From contig JAQSCW010000018.1 in NCBI GenBank assembly GCA_029945625.1, forward strand, positions 62,001 through 126,000: 64,000 bases of DNA, given 5' to 3'. Shown in pieces: positions 34,867-51,499 of the stretch; positions within the stretch are counted from its first letter, which is position 1; each line of letters starts with the position of its first letter. Both the position numbers and the translations under genes were made by a program. This DNA is from a bacterium (GTDB taxonomy: Bacteria; Bacteroidota; Bacteroidia; B-17B0; Aurantibacillaceae). The notes below the pieces were generated by a model. It saw only the letters and a list, made by a program, of their open reading frames with translations. It was not told the origin of the DNA and did no database searches.

Positions 34867-34882
34867 TAGACCATTAAAAGAA

Positions 34883-36529
34883 ATGAGGTCGTTATTGATC
34901 AAATACAACTATCTCCTCTTCTTAGTCATTCTGTTTTTTATCGCCGAACTTCTTGTCAGACCTTTCGGCAATTTCCCCCTCAACGATGATTGGTCGTATG
35001 CCAAATCAGTTTTAATACTGGTGAATGATGCACGACTCGATATTGGTTATTGGCCTGCCATGACTCTGGCGACTCACATTGTATGGGGAGCTCTGTTTGT
35101 AAAAGTATTTGGGTTCTCTTTTTTGGTTTTACGGATTTCTACTCTGGTATCTGCGATTATATGTTTATTTGCACTCTACAGTCTTATTCTGAAAATAAGT
35201 AGGGATAAGATCATCGCTTTTATTTCCAGTCTTACCTTACTTTTTAATCCTATTTTTTTCAACATGAGCAATACATTCATGACCGATGTGAATTTTCTCA
35301 CGTTGTTTTTGCTTTGCGCATATCTTGCGTATGATTTTTTTGTTGAGGATAAACTGTCCTCCTTTTTTCTTGTTTTTGTTCTATCGACTCTGCTTGTCCT
35401 GCTGCGACAATACGGCATCGTGGTACCCGCTGCAATGGTCATCAGTTGTTTATTTCTGAAGAAGAAAAAGCTGTTTTATTTTGGTGTGGCGCTTGTTTTT
35501 ACACTCCTTATTTTCGCGATTTTTATGTGGTATGAGCGTTATCTTAGAACTATTCTTCCTGTGGGATCCTCCTATAAATTCTCGGGTAATTTTAATCCCG
35601 GTACCCGAGTTTTTTGGGATAGCCTTTATTATGGAATAACTACCCGTTATAAGATTGTGGGAATTCACGCTTTATTTTACACATTCCCGCTCGTTGCAGT
35701 TTGGTTAATGGATAGTGTACGAACACAAGCGAAAATGGCTGTTATTTTTATTTCAGTTCCCGTGTTTTGCCTCGTTTACTATTTATTCAAAGATTACCCG
35801 CTTCAGGTTGGTAATGTGTTTGAAGACGCAGGAGTGGGAGCCGACACCTTTTACGAAACTCAAAAGGGTACTTTTATCGAACATAAGCACAATTATTCTG
35901 CTTCCTTTTTTTCTATTGTTACGCCATTAAAGTATGTTTTGATTTCGCTTTCACTTATCTTAATTATATTTTTCCTAAAAAAAATTAGGAACATCAAACG
36001 GGGACCTGTCACTAAACACCCGGAAATTATTTTTCTCACCACACTTTTTATAGCTTATCTTGTAATGATCCTGATCACCGAAAGTTTTTTCGATCGGTAT
36101 CAATTGCCGGTGATAGCGCTATCCCTTATCCTATTTGCATACTTTCAAAAGGTGTTTAAACCTGCTTATTGGCTTTCTTTAGTCCCTTTGCTCGGTTTAT
36201 TTTATATTTCAGTTTTCGGTACCCGCGATTATTTTACGGTGAATAACAAGAAGTGGGAGGCCTACCATTACTTATGTGAGGAGAAGAAAGTGGATGGAGG
36301 TAAAATAAATGGTGGGTTTGAGATTATTTGGTGGGATGATGGAAAAGATAGCCGTTGGCATAATTCGGTAGAATTGCGAGGATATGAGTATCTGATTCAG
36401 TTTAAATCGGAGGATGATTTTGAATTATTTAAAGAATATCCATTTCAAAAGTATTTTCCCTTCAAAAAAGATACTTTGAGGATCTTCAAACGAAAACCAC
36501 ACCCTACCGAAATTCACCATGCGTATTGA
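34883..36529 (+). CDS. GT-C/ArnT-like polytopic glycosyltransferase, copy A
   Basis: Integral membrane protein of 548 residues with about a dozen hydrophobic segments. After the first membrane segment comes FPLNDDWSYAKS with two adjacent acidic residues (Asp35, Asp36), the position of the catalytic aspartates in GT39/ArnT-like GT-C enzymes that use polyprenyl-phosphate sugars. A second landmark is the MSNTFMTDVNF loop. The C-terminal about 90 residues form a soluble domain (KINGGFEIIWWDDGK ... FQKYFPFKKDTLRIFKR) shared with the paralogue at 40424-42079. Acceptor and sugar unknown. Although the frame extends upstream into the PBP gene, the ATG at 34883 is the natural start. Overlaps the next gene by 11 bases. 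Confidence 0.8.
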   Translation: MRSLLIKYNYLLFLVILFFIAELLVRPFGNFPLNDDWSYAKSVLILVNDARLDIGYWPAMTLATHIVWGALFVKVFGFSFLVLRISTLVSAIICLFALYSLILKISRDKIIAFISSLTLLFNPIFFNMSNTFMTDVNFLTLFLLCAYLAYDFFVEDKLSSFFLVFVLSTLLVLLRQYGIVVPAAMVISCLFLKKKKLFYFGVALVFTLLIFAIFMWYERYLRTILPVGSSYKFSGNFNPGTRVFWDSLYYGITTRYKIVGIHALFYTFPLVAVWLMDSVRTQAKMAVIFISVPVFCLVYYLFKDYPLQVGNVFEDAGVGADTFYETQKGTFIEHKHNYSASFFSIVTPLKYVLISLSLILIIFFLKKIRNIKRGPVTKHPEIIFLTTLFIAYLVMILITESFFDRYQLPVIALSLILFAYFQKVFKPAYWLSLVPLLGLFYISVFGTRDYFTVNNKKWEAYHYLCEEKKVDGGKINGGFEIIWWDDGKDSRWHNSVELRGYEYLIQFKSEDDFELFKEYPFQKYFPFKKDTLRIFKRKPHPTEIHHAY

Positions 36530-38105
36530 AAAATTGCTTGTAAAGGATTGGGTGCGAACGCCAATAAATGTGCTGAGTATTGTTTTGCTCGTAGTGGCAG
36601 TATTCTCTCATTTATGGCCAAAGGAAGCCTACCTCACTATGTTCTTTTCTTCCGACGCTCTTTATTTACCATCCTTGTACAAAGATCTGATAAGTGATGG
36701 AAGCAGCATCAAGACATGGCATCTGAACCCATCCCCGAATTTCTTTCCTGATATGATATTCTACTTTTTGTTGATGGCGCTAACCAATAGTTTTATTTGG
36801 GCCACTTTTATTTTTGCATTAGTGCAATATTTGGCCATGGCTCTGCTGATCTCATGGATCTTTCGAATCATTTTTCCGGGACGTTCGGCTTCTTATCAAA
36901 CTTTCATATTTGTTTTCATGTCGATGGTTGCCCTGGAGTTTTTATACCGCAGTCATGATTTGGGATATACTTTTTTGGTTCTTATTAATTCGTATCACAA
37001 TGGCGCGTTCGTTTCGGCACTATTTTGTTTTGCGCTAACACTTAAATACCTAACAAAACAAAAGAACATAATTCTGGTGTACCTGTTTGTTATTGTTTTT
37101 TTGAGCGTGTTTTCCGATCGACTATTTGTAGTCTTATTTCCAATTCCCCTCGTGCTCAGTTTGATGCTTATTTTGCGAAGAAAGACGGTTAAGCCGGTAG
37201 GCCTCCTAATTACCGTTGTAGTGAGTGCCGTGTTTTTTGGGCTTTTTTACTTTAACAAAATTGATAATAATACCTATGTGGTATTTAAGCCGAATAAATT
37301 TTTAGACGCAGCGTCAATCACTGAGTCCTACCATGTTTTTATGAAACAAATGGGATTAACACTAAGTTCGTTGGGATTTAAAGCCCTCATGTTCTATTTG
37401 TTTTTTATTTCCCTTCCTTTTACTTGTTATATAGTTTATCGTTCTTATCGCAAGGAACAGCAAATGATCTTTTTTTCTAGCGGATTTAGTTTGATTTTTA
37501 GCTTTTGTGTGATCTTTTCACCCATCATAAATGGTAAGTATTCCGATTATTCCTGCCTGCGCTATAGTATTTTTCCGGTTTTCTTGGCGGGCCTCAATAT
37601 TTCAATGTTTGTTGCCTTCACCCCAGAAAACAGAAAGTTTAAGTTTGCCGGAAAGGTGTTTGTAAATCTATTGGTTCTGCTGGTAGTAGCTGCCGCTACT
37701 GTTAAAATAGACATGAGGGGTTTGCAGGGCTATTTTTCGTACTATCCCAACCTCGTACGACAAATAGATAATTTGGCGGAAAAGGAAAACCTTCAGTATG
37801 GTGCGGGAAATTATTGGGTGGCTAAATACGTGACGCTATTTTCGAGAAAGGGGGTCAAAATCCGTTCGGTGTTTGATGATATTTCTATTTATGATCATGT
37901 TTCAAATGATGCATGGTTTTTTAATAATATTTTTACTTTTGTAGTACTTAATAGATTTAACGATACCACTTTATACCGGCAAAAGTTGAAGGGAATTAAG
38001 ATAGTGAATTACGACAAAAGTTTAAAACTTGTACGAGTGAGCCCGTTTACTTACAGGAGGGAAACGGGCTACCGGGCACAAAATATTGGATTTATAGAAG
38101 AGTAA
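36519..38105 (+). CDS. Polytopic membrane protein, GT-C-like
   Basis: A 528-residue protein with at least ten hydrophobic segments. After the first membrane segment there is MFFSSDALYLPSLYKDL with an aspartate (Asp46) in the place of the GT-C catalytic residue, and the following loop WHLNPSPNFFPDM. The last about 130 residues are less hydrophobic and probably extracytoplasmic. I do not recognise the family with confidence; membership in the GT-C superfamily is inferred from topology and the loop aspartate. It overlaps the upstream GT-C gene by 11 bases and precedes scoA by three bases, so translation of all three is probably coupled. Confidence 0.65.
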   Translation: MRIEKLLVKDWVRTPINVLSIVLLVVAVFSHLWPKEAYLTMFFSSDALYLPSLYKDLISDGSSIKTWHLNPSPNFFPDMIFYFLLMALTNSFIWATFIFALVQYLAMALLISWIFRIIFPGRSASYQTFIFVFMSMVALEFLYRSHDLGYTFLVLINSYHNGAFVSALFCFALTLKYLTKQKNIILVYLFVIVFLSVFSDRLFVVLFPIPLVLSLMLILRRKTVKPVGLLITVVVSAVFFGLFYFNKIDNNTYVVFKPNKFLDAASITESYHVFMKQMGLTLSSLGFKALMFYLFFISLPFTCYIVYRSYRKEQQMIFFSSGFSLIFSFCVIFSPIINGKYSDYSCLRYSIFPVFLAGLNISMFVAFTPENRKFKFAGKVFVNLLVLLVVAAATVKIDMRGLQGYFSYYPNLVRQIDNLAEKENLQYGAGNYWVAKYVTLFSRKGVKIRSVFDDISIYDHVSNDAWFFNNIFTFVVLNRFNDTTLYRQKLKGIKIVNYDKSLKLVRVSPFTYRRETGYRAQNIGFIEE

Positions 38106-38108
38106 ATT

Positions 38109-38822
38109 ATGATAAACAGAGTAGTAAAAAATGTGACAGATGCGCTGAAAGATGTGCAAGACGGAATGACCATTATGGTGGGCGGCTTTGGCTTATGCGG
38201 CATCCCCGAAAATTGCATTGCTGAATTAGTGCGAAAGGGAACCAAGAATCTCACGTGCATCAGTAATAATGCCGGAGTGGATAATTTTGGTTTGGGTTTG
38301 TTATTACAAACAAGACAGGTTAAGAAAATGATCAGCAGCTATGTGGGCGAAAACGAAGAGTTTGAACGTCAGATGTTAAGCGGTGAATTAGAAGTGGAAT
38401 TAGTGCCTCAGGGAACGCTGGCCACGCGCTGCATGGCTGCCGGATATGGGATGCCGGTAATTTATACGCCTGCCGGAGTGGGAACTGAAGTGGCTATTGG
38501 CAAAGAAGTGCGACGCTTCACGTTCAATGGAGAGGAAAAAGATTATTTAATGGAGAAAGCGTTTGAAGCTGATTTCGCGCTGGTAAAAGCATGGAAGGGG
38601 GATGTTGCGGGAAATCTTATTTTTAGGAGTACTGCACGCAATTTCAACCCCCTTATGGCGATGGCCGGAAAAATAACCGTGGCAGAAGTAGAGGAATTGG
38701 TTCCTGCAGGAGAATTGGATCCAAATTTTGTACATGTTCCGGGAATCTATGTTCACCGAATATTTCAAGGTGAGAAATACGAGAAGCGGATCGAACAAAG
38801 AACCGTAAGAAAAAAAGCGTAG
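38109..38822 (+). CDS. scoA: 3-oxoacid CoA-transferase subunit A
   Basis: Alpha subunit of succinyl-CoA:3-ketoacid (or acetoacetyl) CoA-transferase, which activates acetoacetate with CoA from succinyl-CoA for ketone-body and butyrate-type catabolism. The 237 residues match the family: [15 protein letters not shown] near residue 20, [39 protein letters not shown], and YTPAGVGT. The gene is tightly spaced after a membrane protein gene (three bases). Its partner subunit, normally the very next gene, lies 9 kb downstream at 47806, with six glycan genes between. Identification is firm; the location is unusual. Confidence 0.95.
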
Positions 38823-38861
38823 GACGGTATTCACCCTGGGCATTATGACTGTAAATTGTAA

Positions 38862-40340
38862 ATGAAGAGCCTAAATGTTTTCAATGGTAGATCTTTGGTT
38901 CCGGCAATTTTTCTTCTGCTGGCTTTGTTGCATCTGGGAATTGTAATCCTTAATCACTATTACTTTCGCACCTTCGCCTACTATTACGGCGTTTATAATT
39001 TTGCATTTTTTGATTTTGCTCATTTTCGCATCAGTCCCATTCCCATCCTTTTTGATGGGAGCAATTCCACTTTTTTACAAGATCATTTTTCTCTTTTACT
39101 TCCTGTAATTTCACCTTTCTATTGGTTGCTCCACGCCATCACGGGTACATACACCTTATTAATCGTGCAGTGGTTGGCTATTGTTTATGGCGGCTGGGCT
39201 ACTTATAAACTCATTGCATACAAAAGTCACAATCCAAAAATGGCGGCACTGGCCATGGTGACTTATTTTTTGATGTATTGTAGGTTTTCGTCTTATCAGG
39301 CCGACTGTAATCTGGCCATCATTGGTTCAGCGCTCATTCCGGGATTCTTATATTATTTTGAAAAAAAAAATCTACTTCCCCTCATTATCGTTTTTGTGAT
39401 CCTGTTAATTACCCGAGAGGATTTTTCGTTATGGCTCAGCTTTATTTGTTTGTCGTTGGTAATCGTGAAGCGTGGAAGCAAGAAATCTAGAAACCTGGCG
39501 GCACTGTTTCTCGTTATTTCAGTTCTGTTCTTTATTCTTATTTTTAAATGGATCATCCCTTCGCTTGAGTCGGAAACGGTAAAATTCGCTTTGTTCAATT
39601 ACGCAGCTTTGGGTACGACTCCTTTTGAGTCGTTGCAAACCCTGCTTCATCATCCCTTTGATTCTATTAGGATTCTATTTGTGAACCATCTTGGCGATCC
39701 TCAACACGATTGGATAAAGATTAAATTCTATCTTGTTTTTGCCTGCTCCGGAGGAATCTTACTTCTCCTTCGTCCTGCGTATATTATTTGTCTGATTCCG
39801 TTGATCGCCAAAAAAATGTTTAACGATGACCCCATCAGGTGGAGCTACGAAACATATTACGGAATTGAAGTGGCGTCTATTCTTCCTGCATTGGTATTTT
39901 TGACCATTTCAGATTTGAAAGCCGAAAAAATCAGAATCAAGCTTTCTATTTTGGCGCTCGTTATCACGGTTTCAACTTCTGTGTATTGTTTTTGGACTGT
40001 CAATTACCCGATGCTCTATACAAAGTTTGAGTTTTACCGGCCCTGGTTCTTTGAACGTAATTATGCGTTGGCCGATCTGCATCACGCACTTAACAAGGTC
40101 CCTGAAAATGCTGTGGTGAGCGCATCTGGAAGGATTCTACCACATCTGGCCTTTCGCCAAAAAATATACTATTTTCCGAAGGTGGATGACGCTGATTACA
40201 TTTGTTTGACGATTTACGGCGATTCATGGCCCCTTTCTAATGAAGACTATGATGCGGAAGTTAAAAAGCTCAAAGAAAATAGGCTCTGGAAAATTGAATA
40301 TGAAGGGGAAAATGCGATCATCTTCAAGAAAACAAAATAG
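38862..40340 (+). CDS. DUF2079-family membrane protein, copy B (altered motif)
   Basis: A 492-residue polytopic protein of the DUF2079 family, which I know as GT-C-like predicted membrane proteins without proven function. Seen: the first loop NHYYFRTFAYYYGVYNFAFFDFAHF, then FLQDHFSLLLP, CRFSSYQADCNLAIIGSALIPGF, a RED motif and LIAKKMFNDDP. Compared with its paralogue at 42181-43677 the D-x-G of the first loop reads Y-Y-G: Tyr41 replaces the aspartate of copy B' (TAT against GAT). If that aspartate is catalytic, this copy has lost it. The C-terminal about 90 residues form a soluble domain shared by both copies. Confidence 0.75.
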   Translation: MKSLNVFNGRSLVPAIFLLLALLHLGIVILNHYYFRTFAYYYGVYNFAFFDFAHFRISPIPILFDGSNSTFLQDHFSLLLPVISPFYWLLHAITGTYTLLIVQWLAIVYGGWATYKLIAYKSHNPKMAALAMVTYFLMYCRFSSYQADCNLAIIGSALIPGFLYYFEKKNLLPLIIVFVILLITREDFSLWLSFICLSLVIVKRGSKKSRNLAALFLVISVLFFILIFKWIIPSLESETVKFALFNYAALGTTPFESLQTLLHHPFDSIRILFVNHLGDPQHDWIKIKFYLVFACSGGILLLLRPAYIICLIPLIAKKMFNDDPIRWSYETYYGIEVASILPALVFLTISDLKAEKIRIKLSILALVITVSTSVYCFWTVNYPMLYTKFEFYRPWFFERNYALADLHHALNKVPENAVVSASGRILPHLAFRQKIYYFPKVDDADYICLTIYGDSWPLSNEDYDAEVKKLKENRLWKIEYEGENAIIFKKTK

Positions 40341-40423
40341 ACGTATTGCGTCGTTCATTTATCAAAACAGATAAAATTAATTTATAAAACTAACCATTCG
40401 TTATTTCAATAGAACCAATACGT

Positions 40424-42079
40424 GTGAAAGGTAGTAGAGTAGAAAAAATAAAAAAGCACTTTGAAAAGAAAACTGCAATGTTTTTGCTCTTCTTTATTTT
40501 TCTGATCTGCGAGTGGATGGTAAATCCTCTTGGCGAATTTCCACTTAACGATGACTGGTCCTATTCCAAGTCAATTTTGAACTGGATGAAAGACGGGGTG
40601 TTTAGTATCGGCGATTGGCCGGCCATGACCTTGTATACTCATTTGCTGTGGGGAATGTTATTTACAAAAGTTGCCGGTTTTTCCTTTTTCGTGTTGCGTT
40701 TTTCAACAATCATTATGTCGATGATTGGAATATGGGTTCTTTTTCACCTGGTGCATGGTATTACAAAGGAGGTTGGCATTTCTTTTTTAGCGGCTTTGGT
40801 GATGATGGTCAACCCCATTTATTTTAACCTGAGCAACACCTACATGACGGATATTACGTTCAATACGCTCTTGTTAGTTTGCTGCTATTTTGCGCATTCC
40901 TTTTTTAGGAAGAACAATGTGGTTTCTTTTAGTTTGGTATTTGTATTCTCAATTTTGCTGGTCCTTACACGGCAACTCGGCGTAATTTTACCTATTTCCT
41001 TCCTCTTTGCCTGTCTGGGACTTAGAAAAGGAAGAACGTTTTATTTGGTGCTTGGCATTTTATTCACCGCCCTCAATTTTTTGGTTCTTCGCACTTATGA
41101 AAATTACCTTCATCATTTATTGCCTGTATCGTCGGCGTATAAATTTTCGGGGGAAATAAATCCCTTTGATCGCGGATTTTGGGATACTCTGTTAGTAAAC
41201 CTCAGATGGAGGCATTCCACCATTTTGCTTCATTTTCTTGCCTTTACGCTGCCTTTTTCAGTTGTTTATTTATTTTCCGTGGGTAGGGGGGCTTCGTTAA
41301 ACGTGAAGCTCTTGGTGACGGCCTTGGTGCTGGGGTTTACATTGCTGGTGTTTTATAAGGAGCCCTTTCCTCAGGGAAATGTGTTTGTGAATATTGGAGT
41401 AGGTACCCGTACTTTTTACGAGTATTTGTGTTCCACCACTTCCAATGTAATTGAACATGCTTCATCACAAGTGTTTGAAGACCGTATGCATTGGGTGAAG
41501 CTAGCTCTCGTCTTCATTAATTCATTTATCATCGTGTTGGGAATTATCAAGTGGCGGCAACTTAAGTTGCGACTGTTTGAAGGAGATCCTTCAAAGTTGT
41601 TTTTTTTACTCTTTATGATGAGTTATTCTGTTATGATACTCATTCCGGGCAGTTATTTCGACCGTTATCATCTACCCCTCATAACGGTGGGCATTATTTT
41701 GTTAAGTTACCTGAGTAAAATTACTTCCTTCAAGTTGAGAGCAACACTTCCTCTTGTGTTAATCATGATGTACGTTTCGGTGGCCGGTACCAAAGATTAC
41801 TTCACAATCAACAAGATCCGGTGGCAAGCGTATTATTATTTAAAAAATGACCGAAAGATCGATCCCGAGAAAATAAACGGAGGCTTCGAAGTGAACTGCT
41901 GGAATGAAGGGAAGTATGCTTTTTGGTATCTTTTCCTGGAGTTGGACCGCTACGACTACCTCATTCAATTTTCACCGGAACCCAAATTTAAACCTCTGAA
42001 GGAATATGAGTTTCAAAGGTATTTTCCCTACAAAAAGGATAAAATTTTTATATTTGCTCGTAGGCCTGATCCCTCGTAA
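40424..42079 (+). CDS. GT-C/ArnT-like polytopic glycosyltransferase, copy A'
   Basis: A 551-residue polytopic protein, clear paralogue of the one at 34883-36529. It shares the loop FPLNDDWSYSKS (Asp43, Asp44), the loop LSNTYMTDITF, the segment PVSSAYKFSGEINP and the C-terminal soluble domain (KINGGFEVNCWNEGK ... FQRYFPYKKDKIFIF). Predicted to transfer a sugar from a polyprenyl-phosphate donor on the outer face of the inner membrane; this follows from GT-C family knowledge. The start is GTG. With the DUF2079 genes on both sides it forms the alternating pattern B-A'-B'. Confidence 0.8.
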   Translation: MKGSRVEKIKKHFEKKTAMFLLFFIFLICEWMVNPLGEFPLNDDWSYSKSILNWMKDGVFSIGDWPAMTLYTHLLWGMLFTKVAGFSFFVLRFSTIIMSMIGIWVLFHLVHGITKEVGISFLAALVMMVNPIYFNLSNTYMTDITFNTLLLVCCYFAHSFFRKNNVVSFSLVFVFSILLVLTRQLGVILPISFLFACLGLRKGRTFYLVLGILFTALNFLVLRTYENYLHHLLPVSSAYKFSGEINPFDRGFWDTLLVNLRWRHSTILLHFLAFTLPFSVVYLFSVGRGASLNVKLLVTALVLGFTLLVFYKEPFPQGNVFVNIGVGTRTFYEYLCSTTSNVIEHASSQVFEDRMHWVKLALVFINSFIIVLGIIKWRQLKLRLFEGDPSKLFFLLFMMSYSVMILIPGSYFDRYHLPLITVGIILLSYLSKITSFKLRATLPLVLIMMYVSVAGTKDYFTINKIRWQAYYYLKNDRKIDPEKINGGFEVNCWNEGKYAFWYLFLELDRYDYLIQFSPEPKFKPLKEYEFQRYFPYKKDKIFIFARRPDPS

Positions 42080-42180
42080 CTAGGAAGAAGAAGGAGGAAA
42101 GATCCTGTAGCAACTATGAAACATTCAATCAACAAAGTTTTTTCAACTAATAGTCATTCGGGGAGGAATGTCGTTCCTAA

Positions 42181-43677
42181 TTGAATCAAGGTTTTTTAAA
42201 ATACACACAAAGTTCCGGGCCCATTATTTGGCTTTGTTTTGTTTTTTTTGCGGCACTGAATTTGATGATTGTCATCTTAAATCACTATTTTTTTAGAACG
42301 TATACCTGGGATTATGGTGCTTATAATTTTGCTTTTTACGATTTTGCTCATTTGAGGCTCAGTCCGAATCTCATCTCAAGAGTCATTGTGCCTTGGGATG
42401 TTCATTTTCTACAGGATCACATTTCGTTTACTCTCCCGCTATTGTCACCTTTGTTTTGGGTAATGAATGGGATGACGCATTCCTATTCTCTGCTTATTAT
42501 TCAGTGGGGGTTTATCGTTTTCGGGGCTTGGGCAACATTTAAATTAGTTGAGCTGAAGTCAAACAGCCAATACCTTGCTTTGCTATCTGTTGTTTATTAT
42601 TATGTGCTTTATGGCAGGTATTCTTCTTATCAAGGAGATTGCAATTTGGCAATCCTTGGGGCAAGTGTTCTTCCGGGATTTTTTTATTTTTTTGAGGCGG
42701 GAAAATTGAAGGCCAGTATGCTGTGTTTTGCTTTCTTGTGCCTCAACCGCGAAGACATGCCTCTTTGCCTGATTTTTATAAGTTTGTTTCTGATGATCGT
42801 TTACCGAAAAGATAGAGAAAGATTTAGATGGGCTGGTATTTTTGCCCTGTTGTCTATTCTCTATTTTGTGGTTGTGTTTACCGTTCTGATTCCATTTTTT
42901 GAAGATCAGAATAAAAAATTTAACCTCTTTGATTATGGCATTCTTGGAGAAAATCCGCTTAAGGCACTTACCTTTGTGCTCACACATCCTCTCAAGGCCA
43001 CGCAATACCTGTTCGTGAATCACCTTAATGATGCTGCTTTTGATTGGGTGAAAACGTCTTTTTATGTTTTGTACGGGGTTTGTGGTGGTTTTCTCCTGTT
43101 TAAACGTCCACTCTATTTTTTGTGTTTAATTCCATTCGTGGCTAAAAAGATGTTTAATGATAGTCCCCAGCGATGGGGCTACGAAAACTATTATAGCATT
43201 GAATTTGTGTGTTTGTTGCCGCTATTTATTTTTTCAATTCTTGCCGAGTTTAAGAACGAACGGCTGCGGTATGGTACTGCTATAACGATTTGTGTAATTT
43301 CTCTTTTACTTACGGCGGTTTGCCTGAAGGAGTCCCTAAATGGCGGCTTGGGAAACCGTAAGATAAATTTCTTTTCTTCAAATTTCTATAAGTCGGAGCA
43401 AAATGTTTCCTCTATCCATAAACTTTTGAAACTTATTCCGGCACAAACCCCCTTGTGTGCCAGCAGCGACCTAATTCCCCACCTGTCGGAAAGAAAAAAG
43501 ATATTTTATTATCCATACACAAAGGAATGTGAGTATGTGTGTGTGAATAAAATGGCGCATACATATCCCGCCACGCAACAACAATTTAACAGCGAGTTCA
43601 ACAACCTATTAAAGAGCAAGTCATGGCGGTTGCTGGCTGTAACCGGCGATGTTTATTTATTTAGAAGAGCAAATTAA
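42181..43677 (+). CDS. DUF2079-family membrane protein, copy B'
   Basis: A 498-residue polytopic protein related along its length to the one at 38862-40340. It retains the first-loop motif YTWDYGAYNFAFYDFAH with Asp44, consistent with the D-x-G loops of DUF2079 proteins. Other shared stretches are FLQDHISFTLPLLSP, GRYSSYQGDCNLAILGASVLPGF, NREDMP and VAKKMFNDSP. The C-terminal soluble part (about 400-498) contains cysteines that copy B lacks. The start is TTG; no ATG or GTG lies nearby upstream. Presumed membrane glycosyltransferase or related glycan enzyme; not proven for any member I know. Confidence 0.75.
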   Translation: MNQGFLKYTQSSGPIIWLCFVFFAALNLMIVILNHYFFRTYTWDYGAYNFAFYDFAHLRLSPNLISRVIVPWDVHFLQDHISFTLPLLSPLFWVMNGMTHSYSLLIIQWGFIVFGAWATFKLVELKSNSQYLALLSVVYYYVLYGRYSSYQGDCNLAILGASVLPGFFYFFEAGKLKASMLCFAFLCLNREDMPLCLIFISLFLMIVYRKDRERFRWAGIFALLSILYFVVVFTVLIPFFEDQNKKFNLFDYGILGENPLKALTFVLTHPLKATQYLFVNHLNDAAFDWVKTSFYVLYGVCGGFLLFKRPLYFLCLIPFVAKKMFNDSPQRWGYENYYSIEFVCLLPLFIFSILAEFKNERLRYGTAITICVISLLLTAVCLKESLNGGLGNRKINFFSSNFYKSEQNVSSIHKLLKLIPAQTPLCASSDLIPHLSERKKIFYYPYTKECEYVCVNKMAHTYPATQQQFNSEFNNLLKSKSWRLLAVTGDVYLFRRAN

Positions 43678-43731
43678 TTTGAAGGTTTAGGTCTCGAAAA
43701 TGAGAATAATTAGGTAAGTTTAGGATAAATT

Positions 43732-45354
43732 ATGCAACCCGGATTTAATATACTCACAGTTTTCAGAAATGCCCGCTTTTACTTGTTCCTGTATGTGATC
43801 GCATTATTTTTACTGAATTATTACAGTAAAACACTTTTTTACCGCCCTAGCAGTATGCACCAATGGCGGCAAACGGATTGCCTTTCGATCACTAAAAATT
43901 ACTACGAAGAAGGAATGCACTTTTTTCAACCTAAAATCCACTACCAGGGACCCGTTGATGGTAAAGCTGTAAGTGAATTTCCCATTTTAAATTATACCGT
44001 TGCGGCATTGTGGAAGGTGTTTGGTGAACATGAATTCATTTACCGCTTGCTTGAGTATCTGATCTATCTCACCGCTATTTTCATTTTATTTGGCACGATG
44101 TTGAGATTCTACAAGTCGAGATTCATAGCTTTTTTTACGGTGAGTATCTTACTCACCTCACCGCTTCTTACTTTTTACAGCTTTAATTTTATTGCAGATG
44201 TTCCCGCCTTGTCGTTTGGGATTATGAGTTTTTGTTTTTTTCTCACCTTTTATTTTAATAAAAAGATCTCATTTTTTTACTGGGCTATTTTTTGCGGCAC
44301 GCTCGCAGTGCTCATGAAAGCCAGTGCTTTAATGGGGCTTTCGCTGTTATTCTTTTTTAGCGTCATCGACCTGCTAAATTTGAACCGGATCTTTAAAACA
44401 GAGCGTTTATTTACTAAAAAGATGTGGCCTGCTTTTACAATTGTTCTTTCGGTAACAGTCATTGTGTCTTGGTACCGCTTCGCATTGGCATATAATCTTA
44501 ACAATTCCAATAATATTTTCCTTCTTACGGTGTTGCCAATTTGGGAAATGGATGAGGCACAGATTATTTATAATCTCAAAAACCTGTTCAATAATCTCTT
44601 TCCGGTCTTTCTGAATAAACCTATGTTGTTTTTGTTTTTGTGTGTTGTGATGTACGTCGCCGGTCGGTTTAGGCAACTGAATGTGTTTTATAGATACGCA
44701 TTTGTATTTACAGCTATCTATTTTGTTTTTTATATTTTGTTCTTTTTTCAGGTTTTTGGGGTTCACGACTATTACCTGAATAACCTCATGATTTTTCCGG
44801 TAATCACTTTTATGTCATTTGCCTCTATTATTACCAAAACCAATTTCCTGATTTCTCATCGTTCTTTTGTGTGGCTTTTTTTGATATCGCTTATATTGTT
44901 TAATTCTTTTCATGCCGCTGCCATGTATCGTTTGCGAATGATTAAAGATGATAAAATGGTGTATTGGTTTCCTTTCAATACGGAGGAGGAACGTAATCTC
45001 TCTCAGTATTTATTTTGGGATTATGGAAATGCAATCAAAAAGGTAGAGGGTCTTACGCCCGCACTGAGAGAACATGGTATTCAGCGCGAAGATTTTGTAC
45101 TGAGTGTTCCCGATCAAAGTTTCGATATTTCATTGTACTTTATGGATCAAAAGGGGCGAACCATTCCACGCGATTATTTTTCAATGGATACAACAATTAT
45201 TTTTAGTTATAGACATAAAAAAATAAAGTACTTTGTGTTAAGCGATACTACTTTAAAGGCACAGATTTCCTTCAAAAAATTCTCTCCCTATCTCGAAACA
45301 TTTTTTACCAGTAATGGAGTGGAAGTGTTTAAAGTCAAACCGAGTTTTTATTAA
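43732..45354 (+). CDS. GT39/ArnT-like membrane glycosyltransferase
   Basis: A 540-residue polytopic protein of the dolichyl/polyprenyl-phosphate sugar transferase type. The first extracytoplasmic loop has YRPSSMHQWRQTDCLSIT, with Asp49 in the place of the catalytic acidic residue, and goes on to the FPILNYTVAALWKVFGEHEFIYRL segment common in such proteins. About eleven hydrophobic segments are seen, and a short soluble tail (after about 420) with a QSFDISLYFMD motif. It is not close in sequence to the A/A' pair. The stop codon is directly followed by the MBOAT start, so these two and the SGNH gene are surely co-translated. Confidence 0.8.
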   Translation: MQPGFNILTVFRNARFYLFLYVIALFLLNYYSKTLFYRPSSMHQWRQTDCLSITKNYYEEGMHFFQPKIHYQGPVDGKAVSEFPILNYTVAALWKVFGEHEFIYRLLEYLIYLTAIFILFGTMLRFYKSRFIAFFTVSILLTSPLLTFYSFNFIADVPALSFGIMSFCFFLTFYFNKKISFFYWAIFCGTLAVLMKASALMGLSLLFFFSVIDLLNLNRIFKTERLFTKKMWPAFTIVLSVTVIVSWYRFALAYNLNNSNNIFLLTVLPIWEMDEAQIIYNLKNLFNNLFPVFLNKPMLFLFLCVVMYVAGRFRQLNVFYRYAFVFTAIYFVFYILFFFQVFGVHDYYLNNLMIFPVITFMSFASIITKTNFLISHRSFVWLFLISLILFNSFHAAAMYRLRMIKDDKMVYWFPFNTEEERNLSQYLFWDYGNAIKKVEGLTPALREHGIQREDFVLSVPDQSFDISLYFMDQKGRTIPRDYFSMDTTIIFSYRHKKIKYFVLSDTTLKAQISFKKFSPYLETFFTSNGVEVFKVKPSFY

Positions 45355-46761
45355 ATGCTGTTTAATTCACTCCATTTCCTTATTTTTTTGCCACTCGTGA
45401 TTGGGCTCTATTACCTCTTGCCACAGAGGTTCCGATGGATTTTTATTTTTTTGGCGAGTTGTTATTTTTATATGGCCTTTGTGCCTAAGTACATCCTTAT
45501 ATTATTTCTTATCATTGCCATCGATTATGTGTCGGGCTTGGCCATTGAAAAGGCAAGTGGTACAAGGCGAAAACTATTTCTTTGGCTAAGTTTGTCTTCA
45601 AACATCTTATTGCTTGCTTTCTTTAAATATTTTAATTTTTTGAACGTAAATGTAGCCGACTTGCTTTCTCTTTTTGGGACTGAGTTTCACCCGGTGAATT
45701 TGAGCATTATTTTGCCCATCGGACTATCCTTTCACACCTTCCAGTCGATGAGTTATACGATTGAGGTGTACCGGGGGAAACAACAGGCAGAGAAACATTT
45801 GGGATATTTTGCCAACTATGTGCTGTTCTTTCCTCAAATGGTAGCAGGCCCTATTGAACGTTATGAGAATTTGGGTACTGAATTGAAGGTGGAACATCAT
45901 CCGGTGTACAAAAACTTTTCCGACGGTTTTCGTTTAGTTTTATTTGGTTTATTTGTAAAGATGACCATTGCTGATAACATTGCACCTTATGTGAATGAGG
46001 TGTATAAACAGCCTTGGACATATAGTGCTTTGGAGGTATGGGTGGCGGTATTTTTGTTTTCATTTCAGATCTACGCCGATTTTTATGGTTATTCTACTAT
46101 TGCATTGGGCTGTGCGCGTCTCCTTGGCATAAAGATTATGGACAACTTTAAAACACCTTATTTGTCCAGAAGCATTTCCGAATTTTGGTCGCGCTGGCAC
46201 ATCTCACTTAGCACCTGGTTCAGAGATTATTTATACATTACCCTTGGGGGAAACAGAGTAAAACTTCCGAGATGGAGTCTTAATATTATGATTGTGTTTA
46301 TGGTAAGCGGCTTATGGCATGGGGCCAATTGGACCTTTGTAGTGTGGGGCGCTTTGCACGGATTGGTTTCGTTGGCTGAGCGTTATTTCAATATGATAGT
46401 TAAAATTGAAAAAACGGAATCGTTGAGCTTTTGGAATGTTTTGCTTACGGTAAAAACGTTTGTGATCACCTCGCTGATTTGGATCTTTTTCAGGGCCGAA
46501 AATTTTGCCAACGCCAAGGATATGATTAAGGCTCTACTCTTCAACTATCATTTGGCTGGTAAGGGCGTGAATTATATACCGGCGCTGGTGTTTTCTTTAG
46601 CGTTGATCGTCACCGACGTGTACGTTTACAATTCGCGCATCGACGTGCGTCTCGGTTTTCTTAAAACACCCTACAGATGGGCCGTGTATGCCGTTCTGAT
46701 CTTTGGTTTATTTGTTCTTTCGGGCACTCAAAAATTCGCTTTTATTTATTTTCAGTTCTAA
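45355..46761 (+). CDS. MBOAT family O-acyltransferase (AlgI/DltB-like)
   Basis: Polytopic inner-membrane acyltransferase of 468 residues that moves an acyl group across the membrane toward an extracytoplasmic glycan. Conserved MBOAT features: FPQMVAGPIERY near residue 160, FWSRWHISLSTWFRDYLYI near 280, and GLWHGANWTFVVWGALHG with the catalytic histidine pair near 322-335. AlgI (alginate acetylation) and DltB (teichoic acid D-alanylation) are the studied relatives; alginate genes are absent. It shares one base with the following SGNH-like gene, the typical MBOAT-SGNH pairing, and sits between the scoA and scoB genes. Confidence 0.93.
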   Translation: MLFNSLHFLIFLPLVIGLYYLLPQRFRWIFIFLASCYFYMAFVPKYILILFLIIAIDYVSGLAIEKASGTRRKLFLWLSLSSNILLLAFFKYFNFLNVNVADLLSLFGTEFHPVNLSIILPIGLSFHTFQSMSYTIEVYRGKQQAEKHLGYFANYVLFFPQMVAGPIERYENLGTELKVEHHPVYKNFSDGFRLVLFGLFVKMTIADNIAPYVNEVYKQPWTYSALEVWVAVFLFSFQIYADFYGYSTIALGCARLLGIKIMDNFKTPYLSRSISEFWSRWHISLSTWFRDYLYITLGGNRVKLPRWSLNIMIVFMVSGLWHGANWTFVVWGALHGLVSLAERYFNMIVKIEKTESLSFWNVLLTVKTFVITSLIWIFFRAENFANAKDMIKALLFNYHLAGKGVNYIPALVFSLALIVTDVYVYNSRIDVRLGFLKTPYRWAVYAVLIFGLFVLSGTQKFAFIYFQF

Positions 46762-47804
46762 TGTTAAAAAAGGTATTGATACGATTTTTGTGGGTGGGCT
46801 TAATCATCTTGAGCCTCGATGTTGTGTATACGCATACGTTGTACCCTAAAGATCTTGAAGAAAAGAGCAAGGAGGTGGTTGAGATCTGGAATTCTCAGGA
46901 CAGTGCCGATATTTATTATTTTGGCGAATCTTCAAACACCACTTATCGCGAGACGGATTCTCTTAAGAACCGGATCTCAGAATTCACCAATTGGTTTTAC
47001 CCTTCTTTAAGGATCACTAACATTAATAAATTCGCTACGCATGGTGGAGTTTACCGCCAATGGTTAAAAGTTATTGATACAAAAAAGAAATTGCCGCATG
47101 CTATTATTATTACTCTGAATTTACGTTCATTTAATGCCGGATGGATCCATTCCAATCTTGAAACACAATTACAAGAAGCCATGGTGTTTACGCAACCTTT
47201 TCCAAATATTGTGAACCGTTTCTTTTTATCACTGCAGGCCTTTGATAATAAAACTGATAAACAACGTGAAGAAGATATGCTCCGCGATTATCGCACGGTT
47301 CCTCTGGTATTTCCTTATCCTTTTCCCTTTAAAACGGTGTCGGAGTGGGATAGCCATATGGCAGCAGGGGGCTACCTTAAACCCGATGGTTCGTGGGATA
47401 TGGATAAGATCGTATTAGCTTGCCATTTCATTAAGGGGTATGGGTTTAACATTCGCCAAAATAACCCCAGAATAGCCGATTTTGATGCAATTTATGATTG
47501 GTGTTCCAAATTTCAAGTGAATTTATACTTAAATTTATTGGCTGAAAACGTACAGTATGCTGATAGCCTTGTAGGCAAGGATTTAGTATTTTTAATGAAA
47601 CAAAACAGAGATTTTTTGGTGAAAAGATACCAAAAGGGAAATTGCAAAGTGATCGATAACCTGGAGGTGGTGCCCGGACGAGAATTTATAGATCTGGAGT
47701 GGACCACAGAACATTACGCCTGCAAAGGCAGAATGACAATAGCAAAAAATATTTCAGACACGCTAAAAAAACAATTTAATAACAAATACAAGAAGGCCTA
47801 TTAA
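46761..47804 (+). CDS. SGNH/DltD-like partner of the MBOAT acyltransferase
   Basis: A 347-residue protein with an N-terminal membrane anchor (about 7-27) and an extracytoplasmic domain. IYYFGESSNTTYR (Gly55-Asn59) resembles the catalytic serine block of SGNH/DltD-type hydrolases, LNLRSFNAGW could be the Asn block, and LEWTTEHYACKGR near the C-terminus supplies the late acidic residue-histidine pair. The family is inferred, since similarity is weak outside these blocks. The frame is open upstream into the MBOAT gene, but the ATG at 46761 overlaps its stop and begins at the membrane anchor. Its role would be acyl transfer from MBOAT to a surface glycan. It ends one base before scoB. Confidence 0.65.
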   Translation: MLKKVLIRFLWVGLIILSLDVVYTHTLYPKDLEEKSKEVVEIWNSQDSADIYYFGESSNTTYRETDSLKNRISEFTNWFYPSLRITNINKFATHGGVYRQWLKVIDTKKKLPHAIIITLNLRSFNAGWIHSNLETQLQEAMVFTQPFPNIVNRFFLSLQAFDNKTDKQREEDMLRDYRTVPLVFPYPFPFKTVSEWDSHMAAGGYLKPDGSWDMDKIVLACHFIKGYGFNIRQNNPRIADFDAIYDWCSKFQVNLYLNLLAENVQYADSLVGKDLVFLMKQNRDFLVKRYQKGNCKVIDNLEVVPGREFIDLEWTTEHYACKGRMTIAKNISDTLKKQFNNKYKKAY

Positions 47805-47805
47805 C

Positions 47806-48462
47806 ATGTTAGATAAAAATGGAATTGCAAAACGCATTGCACGCGAAGTAAGAGACGGAATGTTTGTGAACCTGGGCATTGGAATCCCAACATTGGTTGC
47901 TAATTTTATTCCTGATGGATATAATGTGGAACTTCAGTCAGAAAATGGCATCCTTGGCATGGGTCCATTTCCTCTCGAAGGCGAGGAAGATCCGGATCTT
48001 ATTAATGCGGGGAAACAGACAGTTACTTTGTTAAAGGGATCAAGCATCTTCGACAGCGCCATGAGTTTTGGTATGATTCGTTCACAAAAGGTAGATCTCA
48101 CTATTTTAGGGGCGATGGAAGTGAGCGAGAACGGTGACATAGCCAATTGGAAAATTCCGGGCAAGATGGTGAAAGGGATGGGTGGCGCTATGGACCTGGT
48201 GGCCAGTGCAAAAAACATCATTGTGGCCATGCAACAAGTGAATAAAGCAGGCCAGTCGAAATTATTAGCTAAGTGCGAATTACCGCTTACGGGAGTAGGC
48301 TGCGTAAAAAAAGTGGTTACTGAATTAGGGGTGTACGATATTATTCCCGGTGGGGGATTCAAATTGCTAGAGCGTGCTCCGGGCGTCAGCGTGGAGCAAA
48401 TAAAAAATGCTACGGTCGGCAAACTCATTATTGAGAGCGAGATCCCTGAGATGATTATTTGA
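47806..48462 (+). CDS. scoB: 3-oxoacid CoA-transferase subunit B
   Basis: Beta subunit of the succinyl-CoA:3-ketoacid CoA-transferase. The 218 residues include NLGIGIPTLVANFIP, the catalytic glutamate in SENGILGMGP (Glu46), GSSIFDSAMSFGMIR, and GAMEVSENGDIANWKIPGK, all typical of the family. It starts one base after the SGNH-like gene, so it is translated from the glycan transcript and not with scoA. With scoA it should form a functional A2B2-type enzyme, unless one of the two is now unused. A GT2 gene follows 46 bases later. Confidence 0.95.
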   Translation: MLDKNGIAKRIAREVRDGMFVNLGIGIPTLVANFIPDGYNVELQSENGILGMGPFPLEGEEDPDLINAGKQTVTLLKGSSIFDSAMSFGMIRSQKVDLTILGAMEVSENGDIANWKIPGKMVKGMGGAMDLVASAKNIIVAMQQVNKAGQSKLLAKCELPLTGVGCVKKVVTELGVYDIIPGGGFKLLERAPGVSVEQIKNATVGKLIIESEIPEMII

Positions 48463-48508: not shown

Positions 48509-49216
48509 GTGCCGGTTTCTGTCGACATAGTCTTACCATGCTATAATCCTAATGAGCGCTGGCACCTTGAGCTCATGAAGTTTCATGCGGTTGCAAAGGC
48601 AAACTATCAAATTAACTATATTATTGTAAATGATGGCACGGCGATAGAGCGAATTTCACCTCAGGTAGATGTTCTGAAGAGAGAAAATATTCCCCATCAG
48701 CTTGTTTCTTATGAAGAAAACAGAGGCAAAGGTTTTGCTCTTCGACGTGGTGTGGCCGAATCCAGAAGTGACTACGCAATTTATACCGATATCGATTTTC
48801 CGTTTACCGATGAGAGCAGCCTCGCACTAATACATAAACTTGTGCACGAGCACTCCGATGTGGTTGCCGGATTTCGTGAACAGGAATATTATGACAATAA
48901 AATGTCGGGGTTCAGAAAACTGCTTTCAAAGGCTTTTCGATTTTTTATTAAGTCTGTTCTCAAAATGCCGATCACTGATACGCAATGCGGATTAAAAGGG
49001 TTTAACGAAAAGGGAAAGGCACACTTTCTGGCCACAAAAACTGATCGCTATCTGTTTGATTTCGAATTTATTTATTCGGTTTGTAGAAATAAAACCTTAA
49101 AAATTCAAGCCATCCCGGTTCAGCTGAAAGACAATGTGGTATTCAGCAAAATGAAGCTAAAGATTCTCATTCAGGAAACCATGAACCTTTTGTCTATACT
49201 CTTGCTTAAAAAATAG
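48509..49216 (+). CDS. GT2 glycosyltransferase, DPM1-like
   Basis: A 235-residue GT-A fold enzyme. Motifs: VDIVLPCYNPNER, DDG-like IVNDGTAIE, ENRGKGFALRRGV, the metal-binding YTDIDFPF, and DTQCGLKGFNEKG. These are hallmarks of dolichyl/polyprenyl-phosphate mannose or glucose synthases; this enzyme would charge a lipid phosphate with a sugar from a nucleotide donor, the substrate that GT-C enzymes use. It lacks the membrane tail of some relatives, as DPM1 does. The start is GTG, as the frame opens right there. It is the last plus-strand gene of this run and converges on the D/D' genes. The functional link to the GT-C genes is inference from families. Confidence 0.88.
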   Translation: MPVSVDIVLPCYNPNERWHLELMKFHAVAKANYQINYIIVNDGTAIERISPQVDVLKRENIPHQLVSYEENRGKGFALRRGVAESRSDYAIYTDIDFPFTDESSLALIHKLVHEHSDVVAGFREQEYYDNKMSGFRKLLSKAFRFFIKSVLKMPITDTQCGLKGFNEKGKAHFLATKTDRYLFDFEFIYSVCRNKTLKIQAIPVQLKDNVVFSKMKLKILIQETMNLLSILLLKK

Positions 49217-49273: not shown

Positions 49274-51496
49274 CTACTTTGAAAAGTTGTTAATGATCGT
49301 ATCATTGCCGTTTACACCCATCACAGCAATGTCAGCGGGTCGAAGCATAAAATCAGAAATGTGATAGGGCATATCCGAATCTGCTTTTAAGACAAACTCA
49401 TAGCGACAATCGCCTTCAAGATCGATGGGGTACTCAAATACATCATAGTGAGAATAAAAACCACTTAACAATCGGGTCGACTGGTAGTATTGCCATTTAT
49501 AATCTTTGCCTTTCCCCCGGGTGATAATGAGCGTGGGAAATTCTTTTCTTCTTCCAAAATTTGCGTAATAATTATGAAAGCTTACAATGTAAGACCCCGA
49601 TCTAACTTTGTTGGAATCGAGTATATAAATGGTCTCGTAATCTCTTGAAATTGTATTTGTAAATGGTTTTTTGTTGTCTGTTGGGATAAAAATTACTCCA
49701 CTTGTGTCTAGTGAATGAATGAGTGCAGCGTTCAGAGTCAGGTCATATTTTCCCGATTTTCTCAACAATAGTTGGGCTTTAGAAATATAACCCATTTGCA
49801 GCGAATCATTTCGCCATAAATATTTAAATTTTGAAAGTAGACGATCTTCATCGGGAAGAAGTGCGTCCTCGGTTTTGATCACAAAAAAGGGAAGATCTTT
49901 TAGGAGGGCAGCGGCCGATTTTATGCGCTTATAGGAGTTCAGTAATTGAATTTCGTTTTCAGTTTCAGTAATGGAGGTGCGCGACATCGAAACGCCCATG
50001 ATGGGCACATTGGCATGATATGAATAGATCATGGCGGGAATCATGGAGTTGTCGCCACCAAGTCGGGCATATGTTTCACTGCCAATATGAAACAAGGGAA
50101 GGGGCAGTATCGCCTGAGGCACATCTGTTTTAAGTTGACGAATGATCTTCTTTTCTTCAGAATTAAGACAGGCTTCGTTAAACACATTTCTGAACTTCCA
50201 GAAGTTGTTTTGGTCCTTGGTGTAATAATAATTGGCTTCAACAAAATTTAGAAGAAAAAATAGTAGGGAAAGTAATTTGAAAGTTCGCAGAAGTGATCTG
50301 TTTTCAAAATACGGTTCTAACGAATGATAGATCACACTAAAAAGAAAAATAGGCAGAACATAGTAAAATGTCCAGGCAAAACGACATACAGCCCGAAATT
50401 GGTCAAGCGCTGAAATTTTCAGGTGCAGTACGTCAAATAAACGGTAATGTAACCCAAATGAAATGAAGAGTAATATCATTGAAGCGCTCAGCAAAGCAAG
50501 AAGTTCTTTTCGAAAAAAGTATTTTTTGAACAGAAAAGGCAGGGTGCCAAAGAAACCGAGAGCAAGAAAAATTACAAATACACCCAAGTACGAATGACCC
50601 TCCAGATGTTGGATCTTTTTTTGGAAGATCGTTTCTAAAAAATTCTGAAAAGGCCCAAAGTCAGGTGCCAGTATGCTGTCAATATTTTCAACCAGCACAT
50701 TCAATCCCTGGGGTTCCCCGGTTCGGTTTAGGTGTTGGTCGGTAACTACCATAAATAATTTAAACAGAATAATTGGTAGAACTCCGCTTATCAGAATGCT
50801 GCCACCATTCATTAGGATTTTTTCTCTCCTAAAATCAAATAGAAAAAAGAAAGAAAGCGATAGAAAAGTAAACACCGAACTACTAAAACCCAAATAGGGA
50901 TGAATAAAAAAAAGGAGAAAGTTATACAGGCAGATCTTAATAAGAATCGCAGGTTGTTTCTTTTGCTGGTATTCTAAAATGAAGAGAATGGAAAGTGGAA
51001 TAAAACAGCCATAAGCTAATCCGTGATGCCCCCCAAAGATCTTTCCGAATTGTGGCGAAAGCAGGGTGATACCAAGTGAAATGAAAAACGACGAGAGCTT
51101 ATCGATGTTTAACCTTTGAAAGATCCGGTAAAAGATAAGTGGTGTAACGATGAATGAGGCAAAAAGAAGCCAGTGCAAAATGCCGATGAGGTGCTGATGT
51201 GTAAACGGAAATAATCGGAGTAGGAATGTGAGCAAGGGCTGGCAGTCGGTGTATACCACATGCTCGCCATACGGAAAATTCATTCCCGAAAAGTGAAGAA
51301 GTTCTGAATCGTTGGTAATGTGAAAGGCATATGTATAATAATTCTTCAGCGCATCGCCCGTAATTCCCGATAAGACGCTATTGGCATTTAGAAGAACGGA
51401 GTGGTAATATCCAAAATAGATGGCTAAGCCGGAGAAAATTAGAAATAGGTAAACTTTCCAATCTTTGTCCGCAAATTTATCAAACCACCTCATCAT
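49274..51496 (-). CDS. Large polytopic membrane protein, tandem copy D'
   Basis: A 740-residue protein with about eleven hydrophobic segments in the first 450 residues, then a 290-residue soluble C-terminal part that is beta-rich. After the first membrane segment comes GITGDALKNYYTYAFHITND (Asp48) and HFSGMNFPYGEHVVYTDCQP, a pattern resembling the first loop of GT-C proteins, although I cannot name the family. The C-terminal region ends FMLRPADIAVM. It is closely related to the upstream gene, which ends three bases before its start, so the two form one operon. Start ATG. Sugar or function unknown. Confidence 0.7.
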   Translation of the reverse strand: MMRWFDKFADKDWKVYLFLIFSGLAIYFGYYHSVLLNANSVLSGITGDALKNYYTYAFHITNDSELLHFSGMNFPYGEHVVYTDCQPLLTFLLRLFPFTHQHLIGILHWLLFASFIVTPLIFYRIFQRLNIDKLSSFFISLGITLLSPQFGKIFGGHHGLAYGCFIPLSILFILEYQQKKQPAILIKICLYNFLLFFIHPYLGFSSSVFTFLSLSFFFLFDFRREKILMNGGSILISGVLPIILFKLFMVVTDQHLNRTGEPQGLNVLVENIDSILAPDFGPFQNFLETIFQKKIQHLEGHSYLGVFVIFLALGFFGTLPFLFKKYFFRKELLALLSASMILLFISFGLHYRLFDVLHLKISALDQFRAVCRFAWTFYYVLPIFLFSVIYHSLEPYFENRSLLRTFKLLSLLFFLLNFVEANYYYTKDQNNFWKFRNVFNEACLNSEEKKIIRQLKTDVPQAILPLPLFHIGSETYARLGGDNSMIPAMIYSYHANVPIMGVSMSRTSITETENEIQLLNSYKRIKSAAALLKDLPFFVIKTEDALLPDEDRLLSKFKYLWRNDSLQMGYISKAQLLLRKSGKYDLTLNAALIHSLDTSGVIFIPTDNKKPFTNTISRDYETIYILDSNKVRSGSYIVSFHNYYANFGRRKEFPTLIITRGKGKDYKWQYYQSTRLLSGFYSHYDVFEYPIDLEGDCRYEFVLKADSDMPYHISDFMLRPADIAVMGVNGNDTIINNFSK

Positions 51497-51499
51497 TAT

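Follow-up and report, generated by a model that had tools for sequence, protein, structure and literature searches.

Variable gene content between scoA and scoB, the two subunit genes of a 3-oxoacid CoA-transferase: a probable insertion hotspot in Bacteroidia

How do the genes for two subunits of one enzyme come to lie 9 kb apart, and do the genes found between them have anything to do with that enzyme? The question is raised by a 64,000-nucleotide stretch of DNA (below, the window) from a bacterium of the family Aurantibacillaceae (Bacteroidota, Bacteroidia; GenBank assembly GCA_029945625.1, contig JAQSCW010000018.1, positions 62,001 to 126,000). In the window, scoA (38109-38822) and scoB (47806-48462), which encode subunits A and B of a 3-oxoacid CoA-transferase, both lie on the + strand and are separated by 8,983 bp (9.0 kb), the longest such gap in the family. 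The scoA-scoB junction is likely an old, repeatedly used insertion hotspot between conserved core genes, located beside the PBP2-RodA-PBP1 genes (PBP, penicillin-binding protein) in the class Bacteroidia. The junction is gene-exact, its content varies between close relatives, and different kinds of inserts are found at the same spot in many families. Odd as the arrangement is, it is widespread, and within the family it reaches its greatest extent here.

Both ScoA and ScoB score above the cut-offs of their subunit models (253.9 bits for TIGR02429, cut-off 128.5, and 307.7 bits for TIGR02428, cut-off 243.55). ScoA matches 3rrl_A with an E-value of 5.3e-90 and ScoB matches 3cdk_B with an E-value of 1.1e-74; the SENG stretch, whose glutamate we take to be the catalytic residue, is aligned gap-free. 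Judged from sequence, the two genes are intact and canonical, and the subunits resemble those of the known ScoAB enzymes (3cdk, 3rrl), SENG in ScoB included; the substrate pair succinyl-CoA/acetoacetate is predicted only. Unlike the genes of those enzymes, which are adjacent or fused, the genes of the window are 9 kb apart. A PF01144 scan of the whole 4.12-Mb genome (55 contigs, 100% complete) returned scoA and scoB and no others, and thus did not find the second scoAB pair that the original prediction had proposed to look for. The layout given there was borne out by open reading frames (ORFs) and Pfam/TIGR matches: the coordinates are correct, six glycan genes on the same strand separate the subunit genes, scoB starts 1 base past an SGNH gene and scoA 3 bases past a membrane-protein gene, and the breakpoint falls exactly between the scoA stop and the scoB start. 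An assembly error is unlikely, since the same junction is split in 44 other genomes of the family.

The family sample consisted of 71 genomes: all 40 returned for the genus of the window and 31 from nine other genera, from which only genomes of at least 90% completeness were taken. An order-level search returned no genome from outside the family. Two or more PF01144 matches were present in 69 of the 71 genomes and one (a single subunit) in G033 and G054; it follows that conserved core genes lie on both sides of the gap. The two genes were found on one contig in 60 genomes (in G016, scoB runs off the end of its contig) and on separate contigs in nine. Fifteen of the 60 same-contig gaps are shorter than 300 bp and gene-free, and the other 45 are at least 300 bp long and carry genes. 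Twelve kinds of cargo occupy these 45 gaps: MBOAT-SGNH (14 gaps), GT-C-MBOAT-SGNH (eight), a lipoprotein of about 180 amino acids (seven), an IVP gene (three), lipoprotein plus GT-C (three), DUF2079 plus GT-C plus MBOAT-SGNH (three, counted as two kinds), an antisense GT-C plus lipoprotein (two), membrane protein plus GT-C plus MBOAT-SGNH (two), and, in one gap each, MBOAT-SGNH-lipoprotein, another membrane protein, and the DUF2079-GTC-DUF2079-GTC-MBOAT-SGNH set of the window. In the window's genus the glycan set is graded in size, from MBOAT+SGNH alone through sets with an added GT-C and then an added DUF2079 or other membrane protein, up to the six genes of the window. Members of the lipoprotein family (cluster c6; loci L121, L122, L134, L119 and others) occupy the scoA-scoB gap in some genomes and the position immediately downstream of scoB in others; a Pfam scan of one member gave no match.

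Outside the family, we surveyed a class sample of 147 evenly drawn genomes, 140 of which belong to other families, with gaps measured between domain matches. Twenty-one genomes without a match and four with one subunit only or a weak match (G096, G170, G177 and G188) were dropped, and a second, adjacent pair of G134 was also left out. Of the 115 genomes that have both genes, 58 have gaps below 300 bp, 40 have gaps that reach or exceed 300 bp, and 17 carry the genes on different contigs, where separation is not distinguishable from an assembly break. Gaps of at least 300 bp were thus found in 40 of 98 same-contig pairs, representing 20 families and reaching up to 10.2 kb. The general statement that the subunit genes are nearly always adjacent, from which the original prediction proceeded, does not hold for the class, where 58 of the 98 pairs are less than 300 bp apart. 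An old arrangement, shared with distant Bacteroidota, had been set there against an insertion; the split junction is indeed shared with 20 other families, though the inserted genes differ. Of the 80 named loci closest to that of the window in scoA, those from other families mostly have the two genes side by side; L086 (9.2 kb) is one of the exceptions.

One of the 40 split class gaps is without an ORF (G144), and another holds only a doubtful ORF of 78 amino acids (G185). Of the 46 class inserts, 43 were scanned; 12 of these were IVP genes (PF05635), and GT-C-type proteins were present in the gaps of at least 12 genomes. An IVP gene was also found in G043. The other inserts include an acyltransferase-3, a thiolase, an ABC transporter, a PIN protein and a PDDEXK_3 protein, among others. 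The thiolase lies between scoA and scoB in G101 (L189) and would fit ketone-body metabolism; the acyltransferase-3 lies in the gap of G153 (L188), from another family. No integrase or transposase was seen among 25 of the 28 Pfam families matched by the 43 class inserts, in the representative inserts scanned for the family, or in a Pfam scan of the six inserts of the window. Among the 40 split loci outside the family, 26 have PBP1 directly before scoA, which points to an old neighbourhood.

Comparison of relatives shows the turnover of gap content directly, as four genome pairs differ gene-exactly at the junction. G031 and G003 (about 85-90% DNA identity) are collinear at 89.8% to the last bases of scoA; 3.2 kb coding for a membrane protein and a GT-C follow in G003 only, and collinearity resumes from the MBOAT start. 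The junctions of G046 and G047 (89-95% DNA identity) differ by one lipoprotein gene. In two more distant pairs, the difference is exactly MBOAT+SGNH (G019 and G020, 72-76%) or one GT-C gene (G009 and G014, 78-86%). On a quick scoA+scoB+PBP1 tree of 58 genomes, from which G016 and G024 were dropped for a cut or broken subunit gene, MBOAT-SGNH is clustered: its presence requires 8 changes (19.2 expected in shuffled data), at least 7 of them forced by well-supported branches. The empty state requires 13 changes among 15 genomes (13.4 expected), and is thus scattered on the tree. The scoA of G024 (L097) contains an in-frame TGA, which may be an error or a sign of decay.

That genes were inserted between the subunit genes, one of two explanations offered in the original prediction, finds support, though not in the form of a single cassette event in the lineage of the window, since the split is spread over the family and class with changing content. 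A single recent insertion of a complete glycan cassette into an intact pair would fit the gene-exact junction and the six genes on one strand. The MBOAT+SGNH split is, however, spread over the genus, and the larger sets differ by single genes or pairs. This extremely improbable scenario was rejected, since relatives hold partial sets at the same junction.

The six genes in the gap of the window, all on the + strand, begin with a DUF2079 membrane protein (38862-40340; PF09852, E = 1.8e-34), a GT-C glycosyltransferase of the PMT_2 type (40424-42079; PF13231, E = 9.1e-9), a second DUF2079 protein (42181-43677; PF09852, E = 2.8e-32), 39% identical to the first, and another PMT_2-type GT-C (43732-45354; PF13231, E = 6.3e-8), a homologue of which immediately precedes MBOAT in 14 of the 29 family gaps that contain MBOAT, that of the window included. 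They are followed by an MBOAT O-acyltransferase (45355-46761; PF03062, E = 5.1e-25) and its SGNH acyltransferase partner (46761-47804). The SGNH protein has no sequence match in Pfam or the PDB and was therefore placed by fold: its structure model (mean pLDDT 93.6) is DltD/PatB-like, the best Foldseek match being DltD (7dxm_B, E = 5.1e-6), with PatB (7tjb) lower at E = 0.012. Its ORF is also open from 46677; the start at 46761, which overlaps the MBOAT stop and gives 347 amino acids, a length also found in several relatives, is more likely. In all 34 cases, no more than 3 bp separate the MBOAT and SGNH genes. In a 35-row MBOAT alignment, His322 is at least 97% conserved and the C-terminal FXYXXF motif is present in every member (34 FIYFQF, the window's among them, and one FIYFRF). 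According to PMC12148441, the tyrosine of this motif is a feature of MBOATs that take acyl groups from acyl-CoA. With the PatAB and DltBD systems, as described there, the pair of the window shares the MBOAT histidine, the C-terminal FXYXXF tyrosine and an adjacent SGNH/DltD-like partner; it differs in being located between scoA and scoB together with GT-C and DUF2079 genes. Together, the six genes probably serve to synthesise a surface glycan and to acylate it. The MBOAT would take an acyl group from acyl-CoA via its C-terminal tyrosine and the SGNH protein would pass it to the glycan, a process that would be independent of the CoA-transferase.

One can also suppose a functional link, in which the CoA-transferase makes or recycles acyl-CoA for the MBOAT and selection keeps the acylation genes in its operon. 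Acetyl-CoA supply needs no dedicated CoA-transferase. Such recruitment, the second explanation of the original prediction, would agree with the presence of MBOAT+SGNH in 29 of the 60 same-contig family gaps and with the acyl-CoA users' tyrosine motif of the MBOAT (PMC12148441), as well as with the acyltransferase-3 and thiolase genes in the gaps of G153 and G101. Searching 81 family genomes for close MBOAT orthologues (at least 450 bits) returned 33, of which 30 are at the sco locus (G040 beside scoA only, G021 and G035 beside scoB at a contig end), a further point in favour of recruitment. The remaining three (G027, G052 and G065) lie elsewhere, which weakens the functional link. For five sampled members of the genus whose gap is empty or otherwise filled (G008, G017, G020, G025 and G030), only more distant MBOAT paralogues were listed. 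Moreover, 31 of the 60 family gaps hold other genes or none, the 40 split loci elsewhere hold other genes, and the acetyl donor of PatA is acetyl-CoA, according to PMC12148441. Recruitment is thus not supported by a gap that takes IVP, PIN, PDDEXK_3, ABC transporter, thiolase or lipoprotein genes, or nothing at all, and we consider it very unlikely.

Cargo genes of the family gaps lie on the scoAB strand in 100 of 102 cases, and many junctions are only a few bases wide. These two observations, and the 29 of 32 insert genes in 25 of 54 PBP1-scoA spacers that follow the same strand, would also be expected if PBP1-scoA-scoB were a well-expressed line within which selection keeps same-strand envelope genes, whatever their function. 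Such an advantage is compatible with a hotspot, but names expression rather than recombination as the cause. It accounts poorly for the antisense GT-C genes in the gaps of G057 and G058 and for gap IVP genes, which have no evident envelope role, and we regard it as rather unlikely to be the driving cause. Since MBOAT-SGNH occupies 29 of the 60 gaps, recruitment and an expression benefit both stay alive as minority readings. Under the hotspot reading, the split would be tolerated because both subunit genes remain in a tightly packed one-strand line, where co-transcription is still possible. A scan for promoters and terminators between 34.5 and 49.5 kb of the window gave 37 promoter-like sequences (shuffled mean 39.2) and 19 terminator-like ones (shuffled mean 14.4, standard deviation 4.0); with counts this close to chance, the scan is of no use for defining operon boundaries.

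The behavior of the junction was compared with that of other spacers. As a control, we used etfB-etfA, another two-gene enzyme pair, whose gaps were measured between domain matches and read by eye. Matches were obtained in 69 of 70 class genomes, in all 69 on one contig, with a largest gap of 662 bp (G106), and in 47 of 48 family genomes, 46 of them on one contig, with a largest gap of 608 bp. The G106 spacer, the only one above 400 bp in the class sample, holds an IVP gene (L220, C7:33450-33764). Around scoA itself, inserts (spacers of at least 300 bp) are present in 45 of 60 scoA-scoB, 25 of 54 PBP1-scoA and 9 of 16 RodA-PBP1 spacers, and in none of 12 PBP2-RodA or 34 MBOAT-SGNH spacers. In 54 family loci, a PBP1 homologue precedes scoA on the same stretch. 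Openness is shared by the spacers around PBP1 and scoA; what surprises is that it extends to the junction of the subunit genes.

In the window, PBP1, the conserved left neighbour of scoA (32617-34866, +; named by eye from the sequence of its ORF), is followed by two genes inserted in the PBP1-scoA spacer. The first codes for a PMT_2-type GT-C glycosyltransferase (34811-36529, +; PF13231, E = 7.9e-8), which is 42% identical to the one at 40424-42079, so that related genes lie on both sides of scoA. The second codes for a protein of 528 amino acids (36519-38105, +) that appears multi-pass membrane by eye, has no Pfam match, and has related proteins encoded at this position in some genomes (cluster c13). 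The RodA-PBP1 and PBP1-scoA spacers (31783-38108 of the window and the corresponding DNA of relatives) vary as well, which makes the entire surroundings of PBP1 a plastic region of envelope genes. Downstream of scoB, where content differs among relatives, the window has a GT2 glycosyltransferase gene (48509-49216, +; PF00535, E = 1.4e-9). Past the locus, on the - strand (49274-53755), are two tandem genes for large proteins of 740 and 751 amino acids that are 48% identical.

How the content is exchanged is suggested by the flanks. Incoming DNA that shares them would replace the content of the gap, mainly by homologous recombination in PBP1/scoA on one side and scoB on the other, presumably with no dedicated integrase. 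Flank homologous recombination has been proposed for hotspots without mobile elements (PMC5635113). In G046/G047, identity at third codon positions drops across the junction from 84% in scoA to 68% in scoB (p = 4e-5), and G031/G003 show a similar step (76% against 67%, p = 0.03). In G036/G004, the sco block is closer than PBP1 (77-84% against 61%; p = 1e-5 for scoA). The data point weakly to this recombination step within the hotspot reading, and we hold it about equally likely to be right or wrong.

Several observations weigh against exchange through the flanks and against the hotspot as a whole. No significant third-position step was seen in G061/G064 and G010/G013, which carry the same cargo. 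Of the pairs with different cargo, G019/G020 are reversed, scoB being closer than scoA (p = 0.048). Five further such pairs gave small nominal differences of either sign: identities in scoA and scoB are 61 and 58% in G009/G014, 72 and 68% in G003/G014, 61 and 66% in G057/G068, 48 and 49% in G007/G030, and 48 and 50% in G042/G043. Every gene of the region rejected the tree of every other gene, although MBOAT and SGNH agreed best with each other, and as these topology tests had no control region, the flanks are not singled out. Inserts are also taken by the PBP1-scoA and RodA-PBP1 spacers, and scoA-scoB is in this respect part of an open region, not a unique site. As the sole other two-gene enzyme pair used for comparison, etfBA is a thin control. 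On the tree, gains are indistinguishable from losses, and stepwise growth of the glycan set is only inferred from the range of states. Finally, the occupancy of 29 of 60 gaps by MBOAT+SGNH, clustered on the tree, may reflect a positional benefit or plain inheritance.

The IVP genes were considered separately, as their relatives are known from intervening sequences (IVSs) of 23S rRNA genes, which are excised by RNase III (PMC4990558). For comparison with the 18 gap-borne IVPs, of which 15 came from 16 scanned genomes (L118, L120, L128 and twelve of L192-L210) and three from L027, L029 and L059, we took 40 of the 72 further IVPs found in the 16 genomes; seven rows were picked as the longest ORF, having been missed by the subfamily profile. 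All 18 gap IVPs, from at least 10 families, fall into one tree group with only 2 of the 40 others (3 label changes, 15.5 expected; 0 of 500 shuffles as low). Support for the group, 89/84, is below the starred level of the program. A/T-rich degenerate inverted repeats flank 14 of the 18, and 11 of the 18 have a terminal stalk in the predicted fold. The repeats are general to IVPs and not special to the gap, since 26 of the 40 others (L212-L251) have them too. Compared with the 23S rRNA IVSs with an S23p/IVP ORF, as described in PMC4990558, the gaps of relatives are alike in holding an IVP ORF, mostly repeat-flanked and capable of forming a stalk. They differ in that these IVPs lie between scoA and scoB, within a protein-coding line and not inside a 23S rRNA gene; the gap of the window has none. 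G052 (7% contamination; L128 C18, L127 C45) carries a second scoA as well as an enlarged one, in which a domain is partly repeated, beside an IVP and scoB.

Either the IVP subfamily has occupied the gap from early in the history of the class, or it has come back to it repeatedly. The first possibility leads to a scenario in which an ancient IVS-like element, an IVP with its inverted repeats, opened the gap early in Bacteroidia and was later replaced by glycan genes, as the single tree group, the repeats and the stalks would suggest. That support for the group is below the starred level, that the repeats are shared with other IVPs, and that 9 of the 10 families have other members with a gap below 300 bp speaks against it. 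The three IVPs from the family of the window do not form a group of their own in the tree, a sign of repeated entry or of poor resolution, and an IVP and glycan genes were never seen together in one gap (60 gaps in the family and 40 in the class). An IVS-like origin of the gap appears unlikely to us. A wider version is quite unlikely: the scoA-scoB mRNA would be a class-wide docking site, taken first by an IVS-type selfish element whose stalk loops out the ORF or is cut, so that the split pair stays working; glycan genes would later have used the opened site, and the two-subunit enzyme would have become the recombination frame of a fast-changing surface locus.

A further occupant of class gaps is a membrane-protein type of about 600 amino acids, represented by 11 proteins in 10 genomes of families f4, f5, f7 and f17. 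It had no Pfam match (five queried: L172, L178, L180, L183 and the first member of the alignment again), and its 11-row profile matched no PDB sequence; the profile matches the GT-C family of the window over 102 columns. One member was modelled (mean pLDDT 83.5), with the Emb arabinosyltransferases, ALG12 and STT3 as best matches and PglB lower, and on this model the type is called a GT-C fold. Many of the other fold matches, about 150-180 columns long, were to a lectin and a viral capsid protein and presumably involve the C-terminal beta domain of the modelled protein.

The kind of hotspot proposed here is known. Hotspots without mobile elements, as described by Oliveira et al. 2017 (PMC5635113), lie between core genes, as the scoA-scoB inserts do. 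The flanks of scoA-scoB are, in contrast, two subunits of one heteromeric enzyme within a tightly packed line of same-strand genes, and the junction is reused across many families of a class, whereas the hotspots of that study were defined within one species. What is unusual is thus the location between two subunit genes of one enzyme. Judged by titles and the beginnings of abstracts, we found no publication on a scoA/scoB split, and none placing an IVP gene between scoA and scoB.

Subunit genes are expected to stay together, and yet scoAB repeatedly frames swaps of cell-surface genes, while the control pair etfBA stays closed. If the hotspot reading is correct, inference of function from operon membership would mislead at the scoA-scoB junction. 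Closely related genomes would then serve as natural experiments on how far an operon tolerates insertions, and would also show how surface glycans diversify without recognised mobile elements.

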